From Paenibacillus sp. BIHB 4019 (GTDB lineage: Bacteria; Bacillota; Bacilli; Paenibacillales; Paenibacillaceae): a stretch of 64,000 nt of DNA. Below are positions 6,778 through 28,919 of this stretch, in pieces. The stretch lies in contig NZ_CP016808.1 of the NCBI RefSeq assembly GCF_002741035.1, forward strand, positions 5,442,501 to 5,506,500. Direction: 5' to 3'. Under the pieces are notes generated by a model. The model searched no databases. It was given only the letters and a program-made list of their open reading frames with translations, and was not told where the DNA came from. The position numbers and the translations under genes were made by a program. Position 1 is the stretch's first letter. Every line of letters begins with the position of its first letter.

Positions 6778-9306
6778 ATGGCTGATCGCAGGCAAAGAAC
6801 ACAACCTGAGAAGAAAACAAAGCCTAAGAAGAAAAGAAGAATGTCGGGGAAAACATGGTTTTTCCTGTTGTTTTTCACTGTAGTTATAGCTATCGTGTGC
6901 GGGATCATCGGATATTCGCTTATTATTTTGAATGGTGAGCGGTTGCTGAAGGAAAGAGCCGATATGATGGTTATGGGCGAAGCATCCATTGTTTATGATG
7001 CGAATGGAGATGAAATTTCCCGATTGTCCACGCCGGAAGAAAATCGTGAAATTGCCGAATACGATGAAATTCCGAAAGAAATGATGAACGCCGTAGTGGC
7101 GACGGAGGATCAGCGGTTTTACGAGCATGCCGGCATCGACTTTTTTGCAATTGGTCGGGCACTCGTCAAGGACGTTATCGCTCGCAGCGCGGTCGAGGGC
7201 GGAAGTACGATTACCCAGCAGCTAGCTAAAAATATGTTTTTATCCTCGGATAAGACATTGTTCCGGAAAGCGACGGAAGCTTCGATTGCTGTCGCATTGG
7301 AAAACAACAATACGAAGGAAGAAATATTGACGCTTTATTTAAACCGGATATACTTCGGCAAAGGCATTTACGGCGTCAAGGGAGCTGCAAAGTATTATTT
7401 TAATACCGAGCTGAAAGACTTGAAGCTGTGGCAAATGGCGACGCTCGCCGGCATGCCGAAAGCGCCAAGCCGCTACAACCCGGTTAATGATGCGGAAGGC
7501 TCCAAGGTGCGCCGTGGAGTTGTGCTTCAGCTGATGTACGACCAGGGCTACATTACGAAGGACGAAATGGACGAGGCGAAGGCCGTTGATTATGTGACTC
7601 CGCCAACCGTAGAGCAAAGCAAGGACGAGCCTTATAAAGCTTTTGTTGACTACGCAGTGGAAGAAGCTTTGAGAGTTATGCCGGATATGACCGAAACGGA
7701 TCTGCGTATTGGCGGTTACCGGATCTATACGACGCTCAACCCAACAGCGCAAAGCGTCGTTGAGAAAGAATTTGCCGACGACTCCAACTTTGAAGAAAGC
7801 GTCGACGATAAGAAGGTTCAAGGCGCAATGGTCATTATCGACCATCGGGACGGGGCCATCCAAGCCATCGCAGGCGGCCGCGATTATGAACGCAAAGGCT
7901 TGAACCGCGTCGAATTGCCGCGTCAGCCGGGATCGGCGTTCAAGCCGATTACTTCTTACGGCCCGGCGCTGGAAACCGGTCAATATTTCCCGTGGACGGT
8001 TTTGAAAAATGATAAAACGTGCTTCGGCAACTATTGTCCTAAAGATTCAAGAGGCGCAACCCCGATTACGATGCAGGAGGCGGTTAAGCATTCCCGCAAC
8101 TTGCCAGCCGTATGGACGCTGAATGAAATTGGCGTTAGCAACGGCGTGAAATTTGCGACAAAGCTTGGTTTTGAACTGAGCGACCAGGATCGCAATCTTG
8201 CGATTGCGCTTGGCGGATTGACGGAAGGTGTTACACCGCTGCAGATGGCGACAGCTTACAGTACTTTTGCCAATAGTGGACAAACCGTTGATTCCCATAC
8301 CATTAGAGAAATTACAACGAGCAGCAATACGGCTGTCTATACGTACAAAGCTCCGTCAACTGAGCAGGTTATGAATGTGGATACCGCATGGTATATGACC
8401 GAAATGCTGCAGACCGTTGTCCAATCCGGAGGTACGGGAACAGGCGCGGCAATAGATCGCCCAGTTGCCGGCAAGACGGGTACGACTCAGCACGGTATTC
8501 CCGGCTTTAATTCAAGCGCTAACCGTGACGCTTGGTTTGTTGGCTATACACCAGAGTGGACAGCCGCTGTATGGATGGGGTACGATCGAACAGATGAGCA
8601 GCATGTGCTCAAGAAGAGCAGTGCCCAGTCGGCTGCCATGTTCTCCAAGGTTATGAAGCAGGCGATGGCAGACATGCCGAAGACCAGCTTTAAGAAGCCG
8701 CAGGGCGTGAAAGAGCCGGTTAAAGATGTCGGAGCAGTAACGAATTTTAACGCTGTGTTTGTACCAGAGCAAATGAAAGTTGCTTTGTCATGGCAAGGGG
8801 CAGCAAGCAGCAACATTTCGTATAAGGTTTATCGCAAGGCGATGGATCAAACGGATTTCAGCTTGTTTGTTGATGCTGCTGGAACAACGGTTGATGATAT
8901 GTCCGTTGCACCAGGCATGTCGTACGACTATTATGTCGTAGCAATCGATGCGGAAAACAACCTGACAAGCAAGCAGTCTGAGACGATAACCGTACAAATT
9001 CCCGAGACGGTCATTGATGTTCCAGACGTTCCGATGGATTCTATTGATCCTGATGAAGGGGGTATTGAGCTGCCATCCTTTAGTCCTGACAGCGGTATGA
9101 CGCCAACCCCGACGCCTGGCCTGGAGACACCTCCAATTGAAACCATCGACCCAGGGACATTTAGTCCCGAGCCTACGGATAACATGGCTAGCCCTCCAGT
9201 TGAGGAGGGCTGGCAAAATGGCGGCAATGTAGGAGGAGGGGATAATCCGGCGAACGCGACGCCGGACCCCGCCCAAGGGGATGGAACGACTAACGAAGCC
9301 GGGTAG
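6778..9306 (+). CDS. Class A penicillin-binding protein (PBP1A family)
   Basis: A bifunctional peptidoglycan synthase of 842 residues. A basic cytoplasmic head (residues 1-28) is followed by one membrane helix (about 29-50). The GT51 glycosyltransferase domain has EDQRFYEHAGID (about 110) and GGSTITQQLAKNMF (about 141-154). The transpeptidase domain has all three motifs: SAFK (about 386), SRN (about 439) and KTGT (about 566). Past residue 650 there is a fibronectin-III-like module and then a Pro/Thr/Gly-rich tail of about 100 residues, likely threaded into the wall. The ATG is preceded by CAGGAGGGG. Such extended tails are common in Bacillales PBPs; nothing identifies the physiological role beyond wall synthesis. 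Confidence 0.95.
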   Translation: MADRRQRTQPEKKTKPKKKRRMSGKTWFFLLFFTVVIAIVCGIIGYSLIILNGERLLKERADMMVMGEASIVYDANGDEISRLSTPEENREIAEYDEIPKEMMNAVVATEDQRFYEHAGIDFFAIGRALVKDVIARSAVEGGSTITQQLAKNMFLSSDKTLFRKATEASIAVALENNNTKEEILTLYLNRIYFGKGIYGVKGAAKYYFNTELKDLKLWQMATLAGMPKAPSRYNPVNDAEGSKVRRGVVLQLMYDQGYITKDEMDEAKAVDYVTPPTVEQSKDEPYKAFVDYAVEEALRVMPDMTETDLRIGGYRIYTTLNPTAQSVVEKEFADDSNFEESVDDKKVQGAMVIIDHRDGAIQAIAGGRDYERKGLNRVELPRQPGSAFKPITSYGPALETGQYFPWTVLKNDKTCFGNYCPKDSRGATPITMQEAVKHSRNLPAVWTLNEIGVSNGVKFATKLGFELSDQDRNLAIALGGLTEGVTPLQMATAYSTFANSGQTVDSHTIREITTSSNTAVYTYKAPSTEQVMNVDTAWYMTEMLQTVVQSGGTGTGAAIDRPVAGKTGTTQHGIPGFNSSANRDAWFVGYTPEWTAAVWMGYDRTDEQHVLKKSSAQSAAMFSKVMKQAMADMPKTSFKKPQGVKEPVKDVGAVTNFNAVFVPEQMKVALSWQGAASSNISYKVYRKAMDQTDFSLFVDAAGTTVDDMSVAPGMSYDYYVVAIDAENNLTSKQSETITVQIPETVIDVPDVPMDSIDPDEGGIELPSFSPDSGMTPTPTPGLETPPIETIDPGTFSPEPTDNMASPPVEEGWQNGGNVGGGDNPANATPDPAQGDGTTNEAG

Positions 9307-19762: not shown

Positions 19763-20443
19763 ATGTGTGGTCGCTTTACAATTACGTCGAATTTAGAAGA
19801 AGTGGTTGAAGTATTTGATGTGGGGAAGACGAATTATGAATACATGAAGCGCTACAATGTAGCTCCAACACAAACGGTGCCAGGAATATTTTATAAAGAT
19901 GGGCAGCGGATCATGGAAGGATTTAAGTGGGGTCTCATACCGTTTTGGAGCAAGGATACAAAGATTGCGTATAAGACCATAAATGCGCGGGCCGAGGGGA
20001 TCGAGAGGAAACCGGCTTTCCGACACCTGTTGAAGCGAAACAGATTACTCATACCTAGTGACGGTTTTTATGAGTGGAGACAAGAGGAGGATGGGAAGCA
20101 GCCTTTTCGGTTTCAGTTGGAATCAAAAGCTGTCTTCGCTTTTGCTGGCCTCTATGACACATGGCGCAATGCAGATGGCGAAGAGGTACAAAGCTGCACG
20201 ATTATTACTACAACACCTAATCAGCTGGTATCGAAAGTTCATAATCGTATGCCGGTCATATTAACAGGTGAGGCTGCTGCCGATTGGATTGATCAAGATA
20301 TAGTAGCAACTGAAGATGTTCTAAGCTTCCTAAAGCCTTACCCAGCAGAGTTAATGATGAAATACCCCGTTTCGAGAGATGTAGGAAACGTTAAAAACGC
20401 TCATGAATCTTTAATTGATGAAATACCGCTAAATTCACAATGA
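19763..20443 (+). CDS. SRAP (SOS response-associated peptidase, YedK/HMCES-like) protein
   Basis: SRAP proteins form a covalent crosslink with abasic sites in single-stranded DNA through Cys2. The 226-residue protein begins MCGRFTI with this Cys. It also shows YNVAPTQ, WGLIPFW, NARAEGI, RLLIPSDGFYEW (catalytic Glu) and HNRMPVIL (catalytic His). GGAGGGATGA precedes the ATG by a normal distance. No LexA box was found upstream. A partial, broken second copy lies at 24228-24436. Together with ku and the ligase this makes a small DNA-damage cluster in the island. Confidence 0.93.
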   Translation: MCGRFTITSNLEEVVEVFDVGKTNYEYMKRYNVAPTQTVPGIFYKDGQRIMEGFKWGLIPFWSKDTKIAYKTINARAEGIERKPAFRHLLKRNRLLIPSDGFYEWRQEEDGKQPFRFQLESKAVFAFAGLYDTWRNADGEEVQSCTIITTTPNQLVSKVHNRMPVILTGEAAADWIDQDIVATEDVLSFLKPYPAELMMKYPVSRDVGNVKNAHESLIDEIPLNSQ

Positions 20444-21268: not shown

Positions 21269-21430
21269 TCCTTAATATGTGGGTATAATATAAGGATTCT
21301 ACATTATTCCTGAATTTCCTTCTTTTATTTTGGGTAATTATAACTACTTTTTAAATTCGCAAGTGCTTGAGAACTGATATTTATTTGTGGTAACACAAAA
21401 TACAGTTAAATTAACTGGCGTATTTAGTTA

Positions 21431-21637
21431 TTATTTGTCTCCAAATCTGATTAGTTTAGGTTGTCGAAGTAGAGCGAAATCAGTAAATTCAAGTGCAGTT
21501 ATACGAGCTGGGAAGGGGACAGCAAGCAACAACATCAGTCCATTTCTTTTTTTAGCCGAATGGATTTTCTCATGGATGCTGTTGCATAAACTGCTGCAGC
21601 ACCTGCTTAGAAGCATTGTCCAATCCCTATTGTTTTA
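21431..21637 (-). pseudogene. Remnant of ATP-dependent DNA ligase C-terminus (duplicate)
   Basis: On the minus strand the frame reads GLDNASKQVLQQFMQQHP, a degenerate middle, then VPFPARITALEFTD and LLRQPKL-RFGDK. This matches the last 70 residues of the intact ligase at 25169-26053 closely. The fragment is fused at about 21629 directly to sequence that lies upstream of ku in the intact copy, so the rest of ligase and all of ku were deleted. Confidence 0.85.
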
Positions 21638-21704
21638 TTTTAGAGCGTGCATTTACTGGAAAGATATTCATTTAGCATAATAATCTGTATTGCATTCAGC
21701 ATGT
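21629..21704. repeat. Direct repeat upstream of agr operon 1
   Basis: About 75 bases starting ATTGTTTTATTTTAG and containing GTGCATTTACTGGAA and TGCATTCAGCAT. The same block, diverged at roughly a quarter of positions, is upstream of agr operon 2 (26913-26988). It is shared leader DNA of the duplicated block and may hold the agr promoter. Confidence 0.8.
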
Positions 21705-21803: not shown

Positions 21804-22466
21804 ATGTTGGAATTCATTTTATTTATGCTTTTCTCCATTGTTGAGGGTTTCGGCATTCTTTACTTAATGCTCAAGATTTACCGATACGATGCAGCAAGCT
21901 TTTATCCAGCACTAATTGTTGTAACGTTAATGAGTTTGCAAAGCTTTTTTTTGAGGGAGGAACTTTCGCTCGAAAGTATCGTGCCCGTTATCAATATTTT
22001 TGTGTTCGTAATATTTCTATCGGTCGTTATCAAGATACCTTTTTTTGCGGCATTAATTATTACTGGTTTGGGGTATTTTATTTTCGCCTCTATCCAAGGT
22101 GCGATTGTTAATACCATACCTTTTTTCTCATTGGCAGAGATTAAAGTGCATCCATATATAGGGTACTTGCTACAGGTCATCACAGCCGGGGTTAACCTTT
22201 CTATTGCCTGGGGACTAAACCGTATGCGAATTGGCTTTATGGAGAGCATCTCAGAAAAGATGCGTTTTCCTCATGAACAGAGAGTGGTCGGAGGTTTTAT
22301 CATTGTGATCTTGCTCGGATTCGGTTTTATACTCCACCAGCGGAGCGAGTTGTTAAATATTATATACTATTTCCTAGCAGCATTATTTTTCTTTGTTTAT
22401 TCGTACCTCAAGGAGGTTAAGCCCAATGGTGGAAACTATTTCGAGAAGACTAGCAATAAGCATTAA
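21804..22466 (+). CDS. AgrC-like membrane sensor without kinase domain (agr operon 1)
   Basis: A 220-residue integral membrane protein with about six to seven helices (from residues 1-24 to 188-207) and only a short basic tail. Its layout matches the transmembrane sensor half of AgrC-type histidine kinases, and it is the first gene of an operon with AgrB, AgrD and LytTR proteins. There is no histidine box or ATP-binding domain; the ORF ends after the last helix, inside agrB. It is a clear paralogue of the protein at 27140-27793 (compare LMLKIYR and LMFKIFR). AAAGGGAG precedes the ATG. A role as peptide receptor, or as a membrane anchor holding the LytTR protein, is inference. Confidence 0.75.
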   Translation: MLEFILFMLFSIVEGFGILYLMLKIYRYDAASFYPALIVVTLMSLQSFFLREELSLESIVPVINIFVFVIFLSVVIKIPFFAALIITGLGYFIFASIQGAIVNTIPFFSLAEIKVHPYIGYLLQVITAGVNLSIAWGLNRMRIGFMESISEKMRFPHEQRVVGGFIIVILLGFGFILHQRSELLNIIYYFLAALFFFVYSYLKEVKPNGGNYFEKTSNKH

Positions 22467-22974
22467 ATCAGTCGTTCCGGAGCATCCAGCGTCGGTAGCT
22501 CGCTTGCAATACGCTTTGTCGTTTATCTTAAACGCTTTATTTATAATTACAGGTGCGCTGCTCATATCCTTTTTCACTGGGCGAACAAGCGGCGTTGTAG
22601 CAGCGTTGATATCATTTGCAATACTTAGGCAGGTATCCGGAGGCATACACCTAAAATCGGGCACAATGTGTGTCATAGTATCCGTAGGCGTGGCGACGGC
22701 ATTGTCTTTCACGCCTAACTTTCCGGGAAAAATGTTGGTGATAATCAATCTCTTAAATCTATTGATTGTATTAATGTTTTCACCAACAGACATAGAAAAA
22801 CAGTCTCGTATCCCAAAACGTTATTACCCACTACTTAAGCTTTTATCTGCCTTAATTGTATGTAGCAATCTGTTGATAGAATCGTCTATAATTGCATTAA
22901 CTCTGCTTGTGCAGTGTTTGACTTTAATTCTGGCGAAGGTGGTGAGTACCCATGCTAAAAAATCTAGTATATAA
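22426..22974 (+). CDS. agrB: AgrB-like autoinducer-peptide processing protease (agr operon 1)
   Basis: AgrB is a membrane cysteine peptidase that cuts the AgrD propeptide and closes the thiolactone or lactone ring. The 182-residue protein has several membrane helices and the motif LRQVSGGIHLKSGTMC, in which His and Cys are seven residues apart, as His77 and Cys84 are in Staphylococcus aureus AgrB. ATG 22426 is chosen because AAGGAGG lies just before it. It overlaps the upstream sensor gene by 41 bases and overlaps the propeptide gene by 23 bases, so all are co-translated. Confidence 0.92.
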   Translation: MVETISRRLAISIKSVVPEHPASVARLQYALSFILNALFIITGALLISFFTGRTSGVVAALISFAILRQVSGGIHLKSGTMCVIVSVGVATALSFTPNFPGKMLVIINLLNLLIVLMFSPTDIEKQSRIPKRYYPLLKLLSALIVCSNLLIESSIIALTLLVQCLTLILAKVVSTHAKKSSI

Positions 22975-23074
22975 ATTGGCTTCATTATTGGACGGCGCGG
23001 CTGTTTTTTCAGTAAGAACAGCAAGCTTCCTCTATGTCAATCAGCCAGAAACCCCAGAAGAATTGTTGAAATAG
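22952..23074 (+). CDS. agrD: AgrD-like cyclic autoinducer propeptide (agr operon 1)
   Basis: A 40-residue ORF starting inside agrB, with GAAGGTGGTGAG upstream. It has the AgrD layout: an amphipathic N-terminal helix (MLKNLVYKLASLL), a core (RTASFLYV) and an acidic C-terminal signal NQPETPEELLK. The tail aligns without gaps to AgrD tails, for example S. aureus DEVEVPKEL and Clostridium YQPEEPKSL. The residue five before the tail, where others have Cys, is Ser, so the predicted ring is SFLYV closed as a serine lactone. Serine rings are known in some staphylococci. No Cys occurs in the peptide. The N-terminal trimming point is not predictable. Confidence 0.85.
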   Translation: MLKNLVYKLASLLDGAAVFSVRTASFLYVNQPETPEELLK

Positions 23075-23086
23075 CGGTGAACATCC

Positions 23087-23482
23087 ATGCACTTATTCAC
23101 GATTGATACGTTGACCGTCTCCAAGGACGAGTTAGGCACATTAGGTCTAGTTTCTGTTAAGGTACAGGACATTATAATTATTAAATCCTTATCGGAAAAG
23201 AAACGCATAATCATACACACTCTGACGGATGTTTACTATACTATGGGTACTCTTGTATACTGGGAAACGGCGCTTAACAGCAGCGGGTACAATTTCCTTG
23301 TGCTCGATCGTTCAGAAATGATTAATCAAGATAAGGTAATATTGCTGAATCCCAAAACAGGAGATGCTTACTTTGAAAGGTTTGTTAATAAACAATCTAA
23401 AAAATGCGGCGTAGCATACCATAGAGTCAAAGATTTTGTCGAATTTATGCTGAAGTACAATCCGGAAATTCAACTAATGTAG
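23087..23482 (+). CDS. Stand-alone LytTR DNA-binding regulator (agr operon 1)
   Basis: A 131-residue protein that is almost entirely a LytTR domain: KVQDIIIIKSLSEKKRIIIH, TLTDVYYTMGTLVYWETAL, and SEMINQDKVILL correspond to the successive strands and the asparagine-containing loop of AgrA/LytR DNA-binding domains. There is no receiver domain, so it cannot be activated by phosphotransfer in the way AgrA is. It starts 12 bases after agrD, with only a weak CGGTGA ribosome site. Likely targets are the CGACA repeats at 23550 (inference). The partner is probably the membrane protein of the same operon. Confidence 0.82.
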   Translation: MHLFTIDTLTVSKDELGTLGLVSVKVQDIIIIKSLSEKKRIIIHTLTDVYYTMGTLVYWETALNSSGYNFLVLDRSEMINQDKVILLNPKTGDAYFERFVNKQSKKCGVAYHRVKDFVEFMLKYNPEIQLM

Positions 23483-23549: not shown

Positions 23550-23589
23550 CGACATAGTGCGACATAATTCACGATCGCCAATTTATATT
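23550..23589 (+). promoter_or_regulatory. Paired CGACA regulator sites with downstream -10
   Basis: CGACA occurs at 23550 and 23560, exactly one helical turn apart, both within TTCGACATAGTGCGACATAA, with CGATC at 23572. A TATATT -10-like hexamer starts at 23584. The same arrangement follows agr operon 2. I infer that these are LytTR-type operators for an agr-controlled promoter that drives the 135-residue gene. Confidence 0.55.
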
Positions 23590-23653: not shown

Positions 23654-24061
23654 ATGGAGATAGCAGAATTTGAAAAAAACACCGCATTTAAGTTTGCAGA
23701 GTTCAAAAAGAAATGGTCTGGAAGAGGAGCAATACGAACAACTTTTCGACTTGATACAGATTCAGCAGTCCTTGTCTTTGAACAGGATTTCACGAATTTG
23801 GAATATGATTTATTAGACTTTACAAAGTCTGAAAATCGAATGGACAAATATCTAAAAAGGATTGTGAATGTAATGACAGGGGACTTTAATCCTTTTCTCA
23901 ATTCGTTACATGAAGGTCTGCAAATTACGGCGATGAAGACGACTGTAGAGGGGCTGGCATTCAGGTATCAGATCACCACAATGGTGTTTAATAAAAATTT
24001 GCGACAACTCGTACTGTCTGATGATATAGACAAGAGTAGAATCTTACAAAGCACTAAATAA
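23654..24061 (+). CDS. Unknown 135-residue protein, candidate agr-controlled gene
   Basis: A soluble, charged protein with no signal peptide. Seen features are an acidic/basic N-terminus (EIAEFEKNTAFKFAEFKKKW), RTTFRLDTDSAVLVFEQDF strands, and a C-terminal part with FRYQITTMVFNKNLRQL. Sequence is like no family I recognise. CAGGGGG lies nine bases before the ATG. It is the only gene between the paired CGACA promoter and a terminator at 24100, so it is probably the output of operon 1; this is inference. Confidence 0.6.
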   Translation: MEIAEFEKNTAFKFAEFKKKWSGRGAIRTTFRLDTDSAVLVFEQDFTNLEYDLLDFTKSENRMDKYLKRIVNVMTGDFNPFLNSLHEGLQITAMKTTVEGLAFRYQITTMVFNKNLRQLVLSDDIDKSRILQSTK

Positions 24062-24227: not shown

Positions 24228-24436
24228 TCTTTTATGAATATATGAAGCGTTACAATGTAGCTCCAACACAATTAGCTCCGGGAATATTTAATAAAGATGG
24301 GCAGCGCACTATGGAAGGCTTTAAAAAGGGGGGCTTACACCGTTCTGGAGCAAAGATGCTAAGATGGTATTTGAAACAATAAATGCCCGTTTTCAGGCAT
24401 CTACTTAAGCAGAATCGAATTCTTATTCCAAGTGAT
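24228..24436 (+). pseudogene. Broken second copy of the SRAP gene
   Basis: The sequence EYMKRYNVAPTQLAPGIF and KDGQRTMEGFK matches the intact SRAP protein residues 28-55. It then shifts frame (KDAKMVFETINAR), loses the AEGIERKPA segment, and ends as FRHLLKQNRILIPSD. The N-terminal Cys and C-terminal half are gone. It marks the left end of the second copy of the duplicated block. Confidence 0.85.
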
Positions 24437-25074: not shown

Positions 25075-25168
25075 GTTTTACTGAAACATGAAGGTAATTT
25101 TATCTCTTCAATCGGGCATCAATCTTCTTTTTAAAACAGAGAGTTCTGAGGCCTAAAAGGTACTTTGG

Positions 25169-26053
25169 TTATGATTTGTCCCCAAATCCGAGTAGCTTAG
25201 GCTGGCGAAGTAGTCCGGAATCAGTAAATTCCAGAGCTGTTACACGAGCTGGGAAGGGGACTGAAAGCCACACAACATCAGATTTTACCATGCCAGGAGT
25301 TAGCTCTTTAAAAGGGCACTCCCCAGGGTGATCTACCATAAACTGATGAAGTACTTGCTTGGATGCTTGATCCAAGCCCGAAACATGCCCGATGTAACGA
25401 TTTTCATATCGCAGGACAAGGCTTGAAACAAGTCCATCCCGCAGTTTTATGCCGACGACGTCAGCGACTATCCGTACTTCTTTGCGTTTTTTAAACCAAT
25501 ATTGATGTTTTTTTCCCTCCATATAAGGGCTATCTAATCTTTTCGAAATAATTCCTTCCCATTCCCGTTCATTCAGCCAATTCCAAAGTGCTTGTCCATC
25601 GAAATGCAAATCGGTTACAAATAGTCGAGGCGTTTTCTCTGGAAATGAGGCTTTCAGTTTCTCAAAACGTTCTTTATAAGGGAGTTTGCGAATGTCCTCG
25701 CCATTCGAATTGATCATATCAAACATTACAAAAATAAGGCCATCATCGGGGATGCGTTTTCGCGCCCCTAACTTGGCTCTTTGAAAATTTGGGCGCACCC
25801 CATCGAAATAGGCGATTTCTCCATCCAATATACAAGGGCCAACGCGGATCGGCTCTAATAACGCCACTATTTCCGGGAAAGTATGATTACGCGGCTCCAA
25901 CCTTCGTCCGAATAGTTCCACCCTCCCTAAACCATCTAAGCGGACCAAAGTGCGCACGCCGTCCCATTTAATTTGATAACCCCATTCGGGGCCTTCGGGA
26001 ATAATGGAAGAGGTTATAGGAGCCATAGGGACAGAAGGGAGCTGCATGGTCAT
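25169..26053 (-). CDS. ATP-dependent DNA ligase of non-homologous end joining (LigD ligase domain type)
   Basis: Seals breaks bridged by Ku. The 294-residue protein is a stand-alone ligase with KWDGVR (about residues 29-34, nucleotide-binding Lys), LDGEIAYFDG, FVMFDM, EGIISKRLDSPY, WFKKRKE and a C-terminal OB domain. It lacks the polymerase/primase and nuclease domains of full LigD. The ATG overlaps the ku stop by four bases, so the pair is co-translated. The C-terminus duplicates in the remnant at 21431-21637. Confidence 0.92.
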   Translation of the reverse strand: MTMQLPSVPMAPITSSIIPEGPEWGYQIKWDGVRTLVRLDGLGRVELFGRRLEPRNHTFPEIVALLEPIRVGPCILDGEIAYFDGVRPNFQRAKLGARKRIPDDGLIFVMFDMINSNGEDIRKLPYKERFEKLKASFPEKTPRLFVTDLHFDGQALWNWLNEREWEGIISKRLDSPYMEGKKHQYWFKKRKEVRIVADVVGIKLRDGLVSSLVLRYENRYIGHVSGLDQASKQVLHQFMVDHPGECPFKELTPGMVKSDVVWLSVPFPARVTALEFTDSGLLRQPKLLGFGDKS

Positions 26054-26898: not shown

Positions 26899-26912
26899 AT
26901 AAAACACTCCTT

Positions 26913-26988
26913 ATCGTTTTATTTTAGTTTGTGCATTTACTGGAAGGATATTCATGTATCATAAAAATCCGTAGTGCATTCAGCATAT
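26913..26988. repeat. Direct repeat upstream of agr operon 2
   Basis: The partner of 21629-21704, sharing ATTTTAG, GTGCATTTACTGGAAGGATATTC and TGCATTCAGCAT. It lies between divergent ku and agr operon 2. Confidence 0.8.
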
Positions 26989-27139
26989 GTGAAGAAATTG
27001 AACTTATTATTCACTTAGCGTCATATTTCGTATTGCCAATATGGACATCTGCGTGCAATGATGGAATTGTAATCTAATATATAGTTTTACTACTAAAAAT
27101 ACATTCTAAGACGGTGGCGACCTGGATACTATTAATTTT

Positions 27140-27793
27140 TTGTTTTTAAGCATGTTTGATGCTCTAGCTGTCGTAATTCTGATGTTTAAAATTTTCAGGC
27201 AGAGTCTACGTGAGCACAAATATATAATCGCGCTGCTATGCGCGATAAGCTCATGTTCATCTTATTTATTTAGGGTTGTACTTGATTTATCTCCTGTTCT
27301 GGACATGTTGGTGCAAATTATGATTTTTCTCCTATTTAATAGGTTCCTTTTGAAGGTGAAAGTCTTTTATTCATGGATAATGGTTGCGACAGGGTTTGGT
27401 GTATTTGTCGCTTTGCAGCTACCTGTTTACTATGTCGCTACGCTCTTCGGCGTTAATGAATCCGTTGCGGCCACATCAGGCGGGTCGGGAATCGAAATCA
27501 TACAAATATTAACCGATTCTGCTGCAGTGATGATAGGTGCTATTTTCAAAGTCTTTAACCTTGGCTTCGCATTCATCGTAATTCCGCCGCACGATTTTGA
27601 CATCAGAGAGAAATTTTTCATCGGAACGAATAGGTTGATTATCATTTCTACCTTAGCGATTGCCGTCACTATTATAGCTGCTTTGTACATAACCATTCAT
27701 TTCAATGTAGTCATGTTTATTTATCCGTTAGTTTTGCTGGCCTTAATAATACTTTATTATCTATCGAGCAGGAGGGATAGGGAAGATGATTGA
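27140..27793 (+). CDS. AgrC-like membrane sensor without kinase domain (agr operon 2)
   Basis: A 217-residue multi-helix membrane protein, paralogue of 21804-22466. It has no kinase domain; the last residues are a charged RRDRED tail. The TTG at 27140 is the first ordinary start, but alignment to the paralogue continues upstream through LDTINFLFLSMFDA, and GGTGG lies five bases before an in-frame CTG at 27122, so the true start may be that CTG. The stop overlaps agrB by eight bases. Role as receptor or LytTR anchor is inference. Confidence 0.72.
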   Translation: MFLSMFDALAVVILMFKIFRQSLREHKYIIALLCAISSCSSYLFRVVLDLSPVLDMLVQIMIFLLFNRFLLKVKVFYSWIMVATGFGVFVALQLPVYYVATLFGVNESVAATSGGSGIEIIQILTDSAAVMIGAIFKVFNLGFAFIVIPPHDFDIREKFFIGTNRLIIISTLAIAVTIIAALYITIHFNVVMFIYPLVLLALIILYYLSSRRDREDD

Positions 27794-28289
27794 ATACATT
27801 TCCAGACAAATAGCAATATCTATTAAAAAGGCTGATCCGCAGGGCAATGTATCTGTCAATGTAATGGCCTACCAATTGGGGTATTGGTTAAATCCAACGG
27901 CGATAATAGCACTATCTTTAGGCATTGGGTGGATTACTGGTGCTTTTCTCGGGACCGTAATGGGTATGCTTGCCTTTTGCATCTTGAGGCGTTATACAGG
28001 CGGTTTTCATTTTTCGTCATTAACCAAATGTTTTATCGTTTCTGCTGCTCTACTTTCAACAATCCCACATATTGTTTTGAATGATGCAGCAGTGATAGCC
28101 TTAACGATGTTAAGCGCAATTCTATTACTTATTTTTCGAAGGGGGGGCGGTGTTTCTTTACTCCTCGTATTATCAAATATATATTTTAAATCAGATGTAA
28201 TCGCGCTTGCATTTTTGGCGCAGATGTTTTTTGTTATTATTCAACAGATTGGGGGTGTAAAAGGGAATGAAACAGAAATTAGCGCGTAA
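27786..28289 (+). CDS. agrB: AgrB-like autoinducer-peptide processing protease (agr operon 2)
   Basis: A 167-residue membrane protein with LRRYTGGFHFSSLTKC, again His and Cys seven residues apart as in AgrB. It is about 15 residues shorter at the C-terminus than the first paralogue. GGAGGGATAG precedes the ATG. It overlaps the upstream sensor gene by eight bases and the propeptide gene by 23 bases, the same overlap as in operon 1, so the duplication preserved the layout. Confidence 0.9.
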   Translation: MIEYISRQIAISIKKADPQGNVSVNVMAYQLGYWLNPTAIIALSLGIGWITGAFLGTVMGMLAFCILRRYTGGFHFSSLTKCFIVSAALLSTIPHIVLNDAAVIALTMLSAILLLIFRRGGGVSLLLVLSNIYFKSDVIALAFLAQMFFVIIQQIGGVKGNETEISA

Positions 28290-28389
28290 ATTCTCGAAAA
28301 TCCTATCTAAAGAAGCGGAGAAATCTGCAGAAGGAAAAAAACAAAAAATTTTCCTCGGAAGCCAACCGGTACCGAAGGAATTGAAGTAG
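28267..28389 (+). CDS. agrD: AgrD-like propeptide lacking a ring Cys/Ser (agr operon 2)
   Basis: A 40-residue ORF with the same length and position as agrD of operon 1, starting 23 bases before the agrB end (GGGGGTG upstream). It has a basic N-terminal helix (MKQKLARKFSKILSKEAEK) and a C-terminal signal QPVPKELK like AgrD tails. The residues before the tail are KKQKIFLGS. There is no Cys in the peptide, and no Ser in the expected ring position five residues before the tail (only Ser20 and Ser32). A thiolactone or lactone ring of the usual kind is therefore not possible at that site. Confidence 0.75.
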   Translation: MKQKLARKFSKILSKEAEKSAEGKKQKIFLGSQPVPKELK

Positions 28390-28390
28390 C

Positions 28391-28771
28391 GTGAGTCTTA
28401 TGGATATGACAACAGAGATTTTGGGACAGCGGGTATACGGGGACGTAATAAATGGGGAGCAATTTGATACTTTCATTTTGTCTGAGGTCATGCTGATTGA
28501 TGTCTTCAAACCTAAGAAAAACTATGTCGTACCGCGTTTTTACACAGTAAAAGGAATCTTTACAGTAATTCTAACGCTTGATGCTTGCAAACAAATATTT
28601 ATACCTTTAGGTTTTAAGTCATTAGATAGCAACATTCTTGTCAACATCGACCACATTAATTATGTAAAGGTCGAGAGATTTGGAAACACCGCTTTTTTTG
28701 AAGGTGGAGTCACTGCAAATGTAATTGGTCGGAAACTTCATTTGGTGGAACATTTAATAAAAAATGACTGA
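28391..28771 (+). CDS. Stand-alone LytTR-like DNA-binding regulator (agr operon 2)
   Basis: A 126-residue LytTR-like protein without a receiver domain, in the same position as the operon 1 regulator. The features are SEVMLIDVFKPKKNYVVPRFYT, GIFTVILTLDACKQIF, and SNILVNIDHINYVKVER, matching the LytTR strands and Asn-containing loop. The GTG at 28391 starts two bases after the agrD stop; an in-frame ATG at 28400 is an alternative. It is more diverged from canonical LytTR than the operon 1 protein. Confidence 0.78.
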   Translation: MSLMDMTTEILGQRVYGDVINGEQFDTFILSEVMLIDVFKPKKNYVVPRFYTVKGIFTVILTLDACKQIFIPLGFKSLDSNILVNIDHINYVKVERFGNTAFFEGGVTANVIGRKLHLVEHLIKND

Positions 28772-28877: not shown

Positions 28878-28919
28878 CGACAATTTCCGACATTGTGACG
28901 ATATCTCCTGTGATACAAT
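28878..28919 (+). promoter_or_regulatory. Paired CGACA regulator sites with downstream -10 (copy 2)
   Basis: CGACA at 28878 and 28888, 10 bp apart, preceded by TATT as in copy 1, with CGAT at 28899 and a TACAAT hexamer at 28914. The distances to the -10 (36 here, 34 in copy 1) are nearly the same. It follows agr operon 2 and its terminator. LytTR binding is inferred from the match between copies. Confidence 0.55.

Follow-up and report, generated by a model that had tools for sequence, protein, structure and literature searches.

Two kinase-free Agr-like operons in Paenibacillus sp. BIHB 4019: putative peptide circuits built on a membrane protein and a receiver-less LytTR protein, with a possible lysine-lactam signal

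Gram-positive quorum sensing is generally taken to rely on histidine kinases as its membrane-bound peptide receptors. A 64,000-nucleotide stretch of Paenibacillus sp. BIHB 4019 (here called the window) raises the question of how an Agr-like peptide could be read by an operon that encodes neither a kinase nor a receiver domain. The initial annotation of the window had proposed that the logic of Agr is combined there with that of the streptococcal LytTR regulatory systems (LRS), a secreted cyclic peptide acting on a membrane protein and its LytTR partner without phosphotransfer.

Operon 1 (21804-23482, from the ORF calls) lies on a single strand in the order M1, AgrB1, AgrD1, LytTR1. The first gene, M1 (21804..22466, + strand, as are all the genes and elements given below), encodes a 220-residue protein with seven predicted membrane helices and no kinase domain, a putative AIP receptor. 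AgrB1 (22426..22974) encodes a peptide-processing membrane protease of 182 residues with H75-x6-C82 (PF04647, 60.7 bits, E = 1.5e-16; cut-off 23 bits), and AgrD1 (22952..23074) a 40-residue pro-peptide of the Ser type (TIGR04223, 34.9 bits; cut-off 19 bits). Its predicted Ser-lactone ring, S25-F-L-Y-V29, would be encoded at 23024..23038 (SFLYV, positions P-10 to P-6 counted from the proline of the P-x-E-L tail), and a cut at V29|N30 is predicted by analogy with AgrD. LytTR1 (23087..23482) encodes a DNA-binding protein of 131 residues without a receiver (PF04397, residues 21-120, 35.9 bits, E = 8.8e-9). M1 overlaps AgrB1, which in turn overlaps AgrD1. The ORFs, Pfam and NCBIfam bear out the seven-helix protein without a kinase, the AgrB with H-x6-C, the 40-residue AgrD-like peptide and the receiver-less 131-residue LytTR protein that had been described earlier. 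The four genes thus stand as stated, with two corrections: AgrD1 has no Cys but a Ser as ring residue, and about 3.6 kb downstream begins a second, diverged operon. The order M-AgrB-AgrD-LytTR was also found in other species, and because the identical order recurs, the arrangement of operon 1 is not a product of chance.

Neither M1 nor its counterpart M2 gave a kinase or other family match, and M had no Pfam or NCBIfam match at E <= 1. An AlphaFold2 model of M1, made with 20 M sequences, consisted of seven long helices (mean pLDDT 79.8) and stopped after the seventh, with no further domain. That M1 is a frameshifted kinase gene was ruled out, since AgrB1 starts inside the end of M1; M ORFs were moreover short across species, the 84 distinct ones being 203-311 aa long (under a length filter of 190-320 aa, with unfiltered open frames of similar size). 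Rfam gave no match at gathering scores across 10 sources. A shared upstream promoter of both operons was considered and rejected: the resemblance of 21423-21538 and 21621-21702 to the segments 25164-25281 and 26905-26986 comes from a decayed ligD/ku duplicate, 21423-21702 being a copy of the ligD end and the ku upstream region with 83-85% identity to those two segments. Among related loci (referred to by L numbers), operon 1 adjoins a ku/ligD match in L070/L071, and operon 2 adjoins ku in L115/L120. A second decayed duplicate near operon 1, at 24242-24382, is a 46-residue remnant like part of the ORF at 19763-20443, which we take to be SRAP-like.

In operon 2 (about 27122-28771) the four genes of operon 1 recur in a more diverged form (20% identity between M2 and M1, 33% between AgrB2 and AgrB1). 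The second M protein, M2 (27122..27793), has an uncertain start, at an in-frame CTG (27122) or TTG (27140); a TAA stands in frame before it at 27107-27109, and relatives of M2 are annotated with a longer N-terminus. AgrB2 (27786..28289, 167 aa) has H-x6-C (PF04647, 48.7 bits). AgrD2 (28267..28389, 40 aa; TIGR04223, 12.9 bits, below the cut-off) has neither Cys nor Ser at the ring position and belongs to a Lys type, with a predicted ring K27-I-F-L30 cut before G; alignment of the AgrD tails places the putative lactam ring codons (KIFL) at 28345..28356. LytTR2 (28391..28771, 126 aa) scored 16.4 bits with PF04397, below the cut-off, and has the LytTR fold without a receiver: the 13 best PDB matches of its model (pLDDT 79.5) were all LytTR domains or proteins, among them a B. 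cereus LytTR domain, ComE and AgrA. AgrB1 and AgrB2 are the only two PF04647 AgrB matches in the genome (closed, 7.25 Mb).

The arrangement is not confined to this strain. Of 394 Paenibacillaceae genomes searched, 261 had AgrB and 237 matched the M profile. We then compared 110 AgrB loci of this family, 30 fetched and 80 hand-picked, a sample skewed to better scores rather than random and with a few genomes included twice. M was present in 77 of these loci, and a kinase-like long membrane protein in 24; M together with a receiver-less LytTR gene was present in 65. The kinase-less order of membrane protein, AgrB, AgrD and LytTR, for which the initial annotation had suggested a search, is widespread. 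The kinase-free M form is the commonest among the Paenibacillaceae AgrB loci of this non-random sample. The kinase-like class was defined by a membrane ORF on the same strand, 330-520 aa long and with at least four predicted helices, or by a match to a small kinase HMM, and was not Pfam-checked; the M loci L121 and L237 were also flagged as kinase-like. No LytTR ORF of 95-170 aa was called in 12 of the 77 M loci. Nine of the 110 loci fell in neither class: L042 and L046 look kinase-type but are cut, L145, L153, L250 and L252 have regulator- or sensor-type genes on the opposite strand, and L157, L215 and L248 encode Lys peptides.

Among the best 30 M loci, all four genes were found in 16, M, AgrB and AgrD without LytTR in seven, and M with LytTR only in three; a recognised AgrD was missing in two and AgrB was broken in two. 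The seven in which LytTR was not found include two same-genus relatives; several of these seven and two loci of family f23 were searched once more by HMM or tblastn, and no LytTR was found. Across the class M occurred in 35 of 398 genomes: 18 of this family, 14 of family f23 and one in each of three others. On the AgrB tree, 14 of 18 Cys-type AgrB proteins from M-less loci formed their own fully supported branch, with the other four on long branches elsewhere.

Where M comes from was approached by sequence, profile and fold. The nearest named protein relatives belong to Paenibacillus sp. KS-LC4 and P. algorifonticola, and each sequence search for the full family gave just three proteins at E <= 0.01, a low yield because M diverges fast. 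No fold match was found in PDB or BFVD at E <= 0.001, and an hhalign comparison of the M profile with that of AgrC sensor halves found nothing, the kinase alignment being mixed and shallow. AgrC ancestry of M accordingly rests on loci L207 and L208. The latter encodes a 450-aa protein with an M-like N-terminal part and a C-terminal part like the AgrC dimerisation region (20.6 bits), with Arg where the dimerisation HMM has His and no ATPase by Pfam, and its neighbours are AgrB, a Ser-type AgrD and a LytTR regulator with a receiver. L207 resembles L208, but its C-terminal part barely matches the dimerisation region; hydrophobic bias is high in both, so that the match to M is weaker than its E-value. 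In L214 M is short and the LytTR regulator has a receiver. Read as a series, these three loci look like a stepwise loss of the kinase first and then the receiver, the presumed direction of change. Read by eye, L148 and L152 encode tandem LytTR proteins, and at L148 2230-3066 a Lys-type AgrD-like N-terminus continues in frame into such an apparent tandem protein.

Distances across 120 loci suggested that M and LytTR change together: the partial correlation was 0.56 for M-LytTR with AgrB removed and 0.25 for AgrB-LytTR with M removed, in pairs that are not independent and were compared without a significance test. If M and LytTR are partners, loci with both genes and without AgrB and AgrD are to be expected, and such loci were found. 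M and LytTR are adjacent in L077, L082 and L086, with AgrB and AgrD not found in the fetched stretch; these may be listeners without a signal of their own.

We next compared 80 stretches following LytTR with 99 upstream of M, drawn from loci L034-L175 with near-copies removed. The top short words after LytTR were TCGACA (20 observed, 2.8 expected) and its neighbours. The pattern CGACA-N5-CGACA, in either orientation, followed LytTR in 17 of 80 operons, including the two in the window, and the N5-spaced pair was missing in the other 63. Seventeen CGACA pairs had a period of 10, and no other period in the range 5 to 40 had more than three; counted in one orientation and with spacers of 3-9 bp, pairs occurred in 11 of the 80 stretches (shuffles 0.0), and none of the 99 stretches upstream of M had a CGACA pair 5-40 bp apart. 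The window has one CGACA-N5-CGACA per LytTR gene, two against 0.05 expected: element 1 (23550..23564), a putative LytTR target promoter, after LytTR1 and element 2 (28878..28892) after LytTR2. TTCGACA-N5-CGACA has four sites genome-wide (reversed-pattern control, two), three of them at or just past the 3' end of receiver-less LytTR genes. The third site runs across the stop codon of a 116-aa receiver-less LytTR gene in a prophage-like region (about 3080263-3080613; L261 464-814) with no AgrB near. The fourth was rejected as LytTR-linked: it has no LytTR match near, and about 110 bp separate it from the final repeat of a CRISPR array that can be read by eye at about 2900-3455 of L260. This placement points to a LytTR target promoter as the probable role of CGACA-N5-CGACA, and its position after LytTR in that role is new here.

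The gene that comes next differs between groups of loci, being for instance a 135-aa ORF, an Sda-like gene or (pro)phage genes. Operon 1 is followed, after element 1, by the 135-aa ORF (23654..24061), a putative target gene; L034/L164 and L117/L175 have homologues at the corresponding position. An Sda-like sporulation inhibitor gene follows the operon in 33 loci (tblastn), a group of Lys-type loci; PF08970 scored above its cut-off in L066 and just below it in L130, and gave no match in L137. Sda-like loci include L063, L065-L067, L125, L130-L132 and L136-L139. Because those Sda loci that belong to the 80 lack the CGACA pair, target sites must differ between groups. The Sda-like neighbour would suggest a link to the sporulation choice, as the phage copies described below would to lysogeny.

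The peptides themselves fall into distinct classes. We aligned 149 distinct AgrD tails on the P of the P-x-E-L tail, counting ORFs near AgrB with a tail P-x-[EDKQAS]-[LFAMIVE] in loci picked for AgrB or M; loci without such an ORF were dropped. All 149 belong to the following Cys, Ser and Lys classes. The 128 tails from M loci comprised Ser at P-10 (55), Cys at P-10 (15), Cys at P-11 (7), Ser at P-9 (1) and Lys at P-9 (50), and the 21 from loci without a called M comprised Cys at P-10 (18) and Lys at P-9 (3). Lys occupied P-9 in 53/53 tails of the Lys class versus 0/88 in the Cys/Ser (P-10) classes. Within the Lys class P-10 varies freely, P-6 is hydrophobic in 53/53 and P-5 is His or Gly in 49/53, which fixes the register, since P-5 His is the commonest residue in the other classes too. 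The AgrB proteins of this class keep His and Cys in 53/53, and its rows span two families plus phages. On the AgrB tree the Lys label needs three changes, Ser 10 and Cys (P-10) 12, so the constancy of Lys is partly due to relatedness. The tails with Cys at P-11 (L124, L129, L133, L141, L222, L231 and L253), which have GHRP or GHHP tails, represent a further ring register and one AgrB-tree clade.

Natural AIPs have a 16-atom ring, and the cut made by AgrB of S. aureus separates P-6 from P-5. A ring of Cys or Ser and four further residues has 16 atoms, and one of Lys and three further residues, with the same cut, has 16 as well. Lys at P-9 in place of Cys or Ser, new here and seen in operon 2, would therefore keep the 16-atom ring as a lactam, and by this arithmetic the product of the Lys class is likely a lactam rather than a linear peptide. 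If true, the class would be a third ring chemistry for one protease family. The widest reading, that one AgrB branch makes lysine-lactam pheromones and that the window holds a Ser-lactone and a Lys-lactam circuit, each with a kinase-free receptor gating LytTR directly, in a module also carried by temperate phages, we put forward tentatively, at somewhat less than an even chance.

The module does occur in phages. A tblastn search with AgrB1 matched eight phage records, which represent five phages including Abouo and Paisley. Three isolate phages, Davies, Emery and Harrison, each encode M, AgrB, a 38-42-aa peptide and a 118-121-aa LytTR protein; the LytTR gene is gp48 in Davies and gp57 in Emery and is also present in Harrison, and its products, annotated as hypothetical or peptidase, matched the LytTR HMM at 3e-18, 5e-12 and 2e-11 (in a set of 14 proteins). 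All four genes were found in 11 of 12 predicted viral contigs, the remaining contig ending inside the operon; two of the contigs, L164 and L175, carry the same sample number. A tblastn search of phages with M1 gave nothing, and the region downstream of operon 1 had no DNA match in phages. Further downstream of the operon in L164 is an S24-only protein: 8121-8396 encodes an S24-peptidase domain without an HTH, a possible prophage antirepressor, and is flanked by the operon on one side and an inverted XRE-type repressor gene on the other. Ours is not the first sighting of a kinase-less Agr form in phages. Hargreaves and co-workers described in 2014 phages with AgrB, AgrD and AgrC-like membrane proteins lacking the ATPase domain, and the available part of that paper lists for Davies, Emery and Abouo AgrB, AgrD and one or two membrane proteins, maybe AgrC homologues, without an ATPase domain (PMC3901668). 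What differs here are the LytTR gene, the bacterial spread and the Lys peptides, none of which we found in that part of the text. A 2025 review, likewise available in part, states that agr-carrying phages lack AgrA and that host AgrA or another effector may serve (PMC11945551).

Each operon of the window is probably a self-contained peptide quorum-sensing circuit without phosphotransfer, running from a peptide ring through M and LytTR to a CGACA promoter. AgrB would cut AgrD and close the ring, and the ring peptide would build up outside and bind M, which would be an AgrC sensor half minus its kinase. Peptide-bound M would then alter its hold on the cytosolic LytTR protein, through a presumed contact and by either release or capture, and LytTR would act at the CGACA-N5-CGACA promoter and drive the next gene, in operon 1 the ORF at 23654. 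The combined logic proposed in the initial annotation is sound and partly supported, its M-to-LytTR step being one that we infer: the operons have no kinase or receiver, are widespread and hold the only two AgrB genes of the genome, whereas upstream repeats of the streptococcal type show no enrichment and the genome has two AgrC/AgrA-type pairs outside the operons.

In each of those pairs, at about 6508.7-6510.3 kb and 755-757 kb (L027, L028), a HATPase_c_5 kinase gene lies next to that of a LytTR response regulator, with no AgrB beside them. An orphan AgrC-type kinase with an AgrA, if shown to use this peptide, had been named at the outset as what would count against a kinase-free circuit, and the pairs would fit an ordinary Agr system with a split receptor, in which a kinase of the genome hears the peptide and M is an accessory (exporter, immunity protein or AgrB partner). 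The occasional occurrence of M-AgrB-AgrD without LytTR would also fit. However, in a survey of these two kinases, kinase 1 (E <= 1e-30) was absent from nine of the 13 same-genus genomes that carry M together with its AgrB, while four genomes without an AgrB match had it, kinase 2 occurred in one of 51 same-genus genomes, its own, and M and LytTR also pair without AgrB and AgrD; we regard the split receptor as unlikely.

Slightly less likely again is an LRS of the HdrRM/BrsRM kind that answers some other signal, with AgrB and AgrD as passengers whose product would be an unrelated peptide, perhaps a small antimicrobial to which M confers immunity. A LytTR-only protein with a membrane protein is what LRS have in the available part of PMC6193735, and M-LytTR pairs without AgrB and AgrD exist. 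Against this, an intact AgrB lay beside M in 25 of the best 30 M loci, 77 of the 110 loci that had been selected by AgrB alone contained M, and M stands first and LytTR last, the reverse of LRS of the S. mutans type. LRS-type 9-bp direct repeats (11-13 bp apart) were likewise not enriched upstream of the operon, with four hits in 99 stretches and 9.5 expected from shuffles (150-bp stretches upstream of M, 8-of-9 match, period 20-22). Least probable by a clear step, and in our view very improbable, are decayed operons that survive as functionless relics of (pro)phage modules. Close versions of the operon do occur in predicted proviruses, operon 1 is flanked by the decayed ligD/ku copy, and the M2 frame has a stop where its annotated relatives are longer at the N-terminus; yet all eight frames are open, bar the uncertain M2 start, and neither copy has lost the active-site residues of AgrB, the Ser or Lys of the ring, the gene overlaps or the element after LytTR.

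Set against known systems, the self-contained circuit that we prefer shares with Agr (agrBDCA) the AgrB protease with H-x6-C, the LytTR output domain, and a spacing from the AgrD ring residue to the P-x-E-L tail equal to that of Cys-type peptides in kinase-type loci. It differs from Agr in having no histidine kinase and no receiver, with M in the place of AgrC, and in the Ser or Lys that replaces Cys in most sampled M operons. An agr-like cassette is mentioned for P. polymyxa ATCC 842 in the available part of PMC7425212, and in the literature searched, mostly without subscription papers and in part as excerpts, we found no description of a bacterial kinase-free class, its LytTR partner or Lys peptides. 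With LRS (HdrRM, BrsRM) the operons share a soluble receiver-less LytTR protein encoded with a membrane protein; as far as the available text of that source goes, HdrM has DUF2154 and the regulator gene precedes the membrane gene in the S. mutans type (PMC6193735), whereas M has no Pfam match and comes first, LytTR comes last, and a dedicated peptide maker is present. According to the same partial source, the signals of HdrRM and BrsRM were not known in 2018 (PMC6193735), and the circuit would give LRS a model with a defined ligand. As a class, the M operons form a variant that stands between Agr and LRS without belonging wholly to either. Arbitrium and similar peptide systems, by which temperate phages carry their own signal, use a linear peptide and a cytosolic receptor, in contrast to the predicted membrane receptor and AgrB-made ring of the M operons. 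In the M operons the sensor half seems to have been detached and coupled directly to a DNA-binding protein, and the operons look like a signalling system that has kept its secreted ring peptide, minus the usual phosphate relay.
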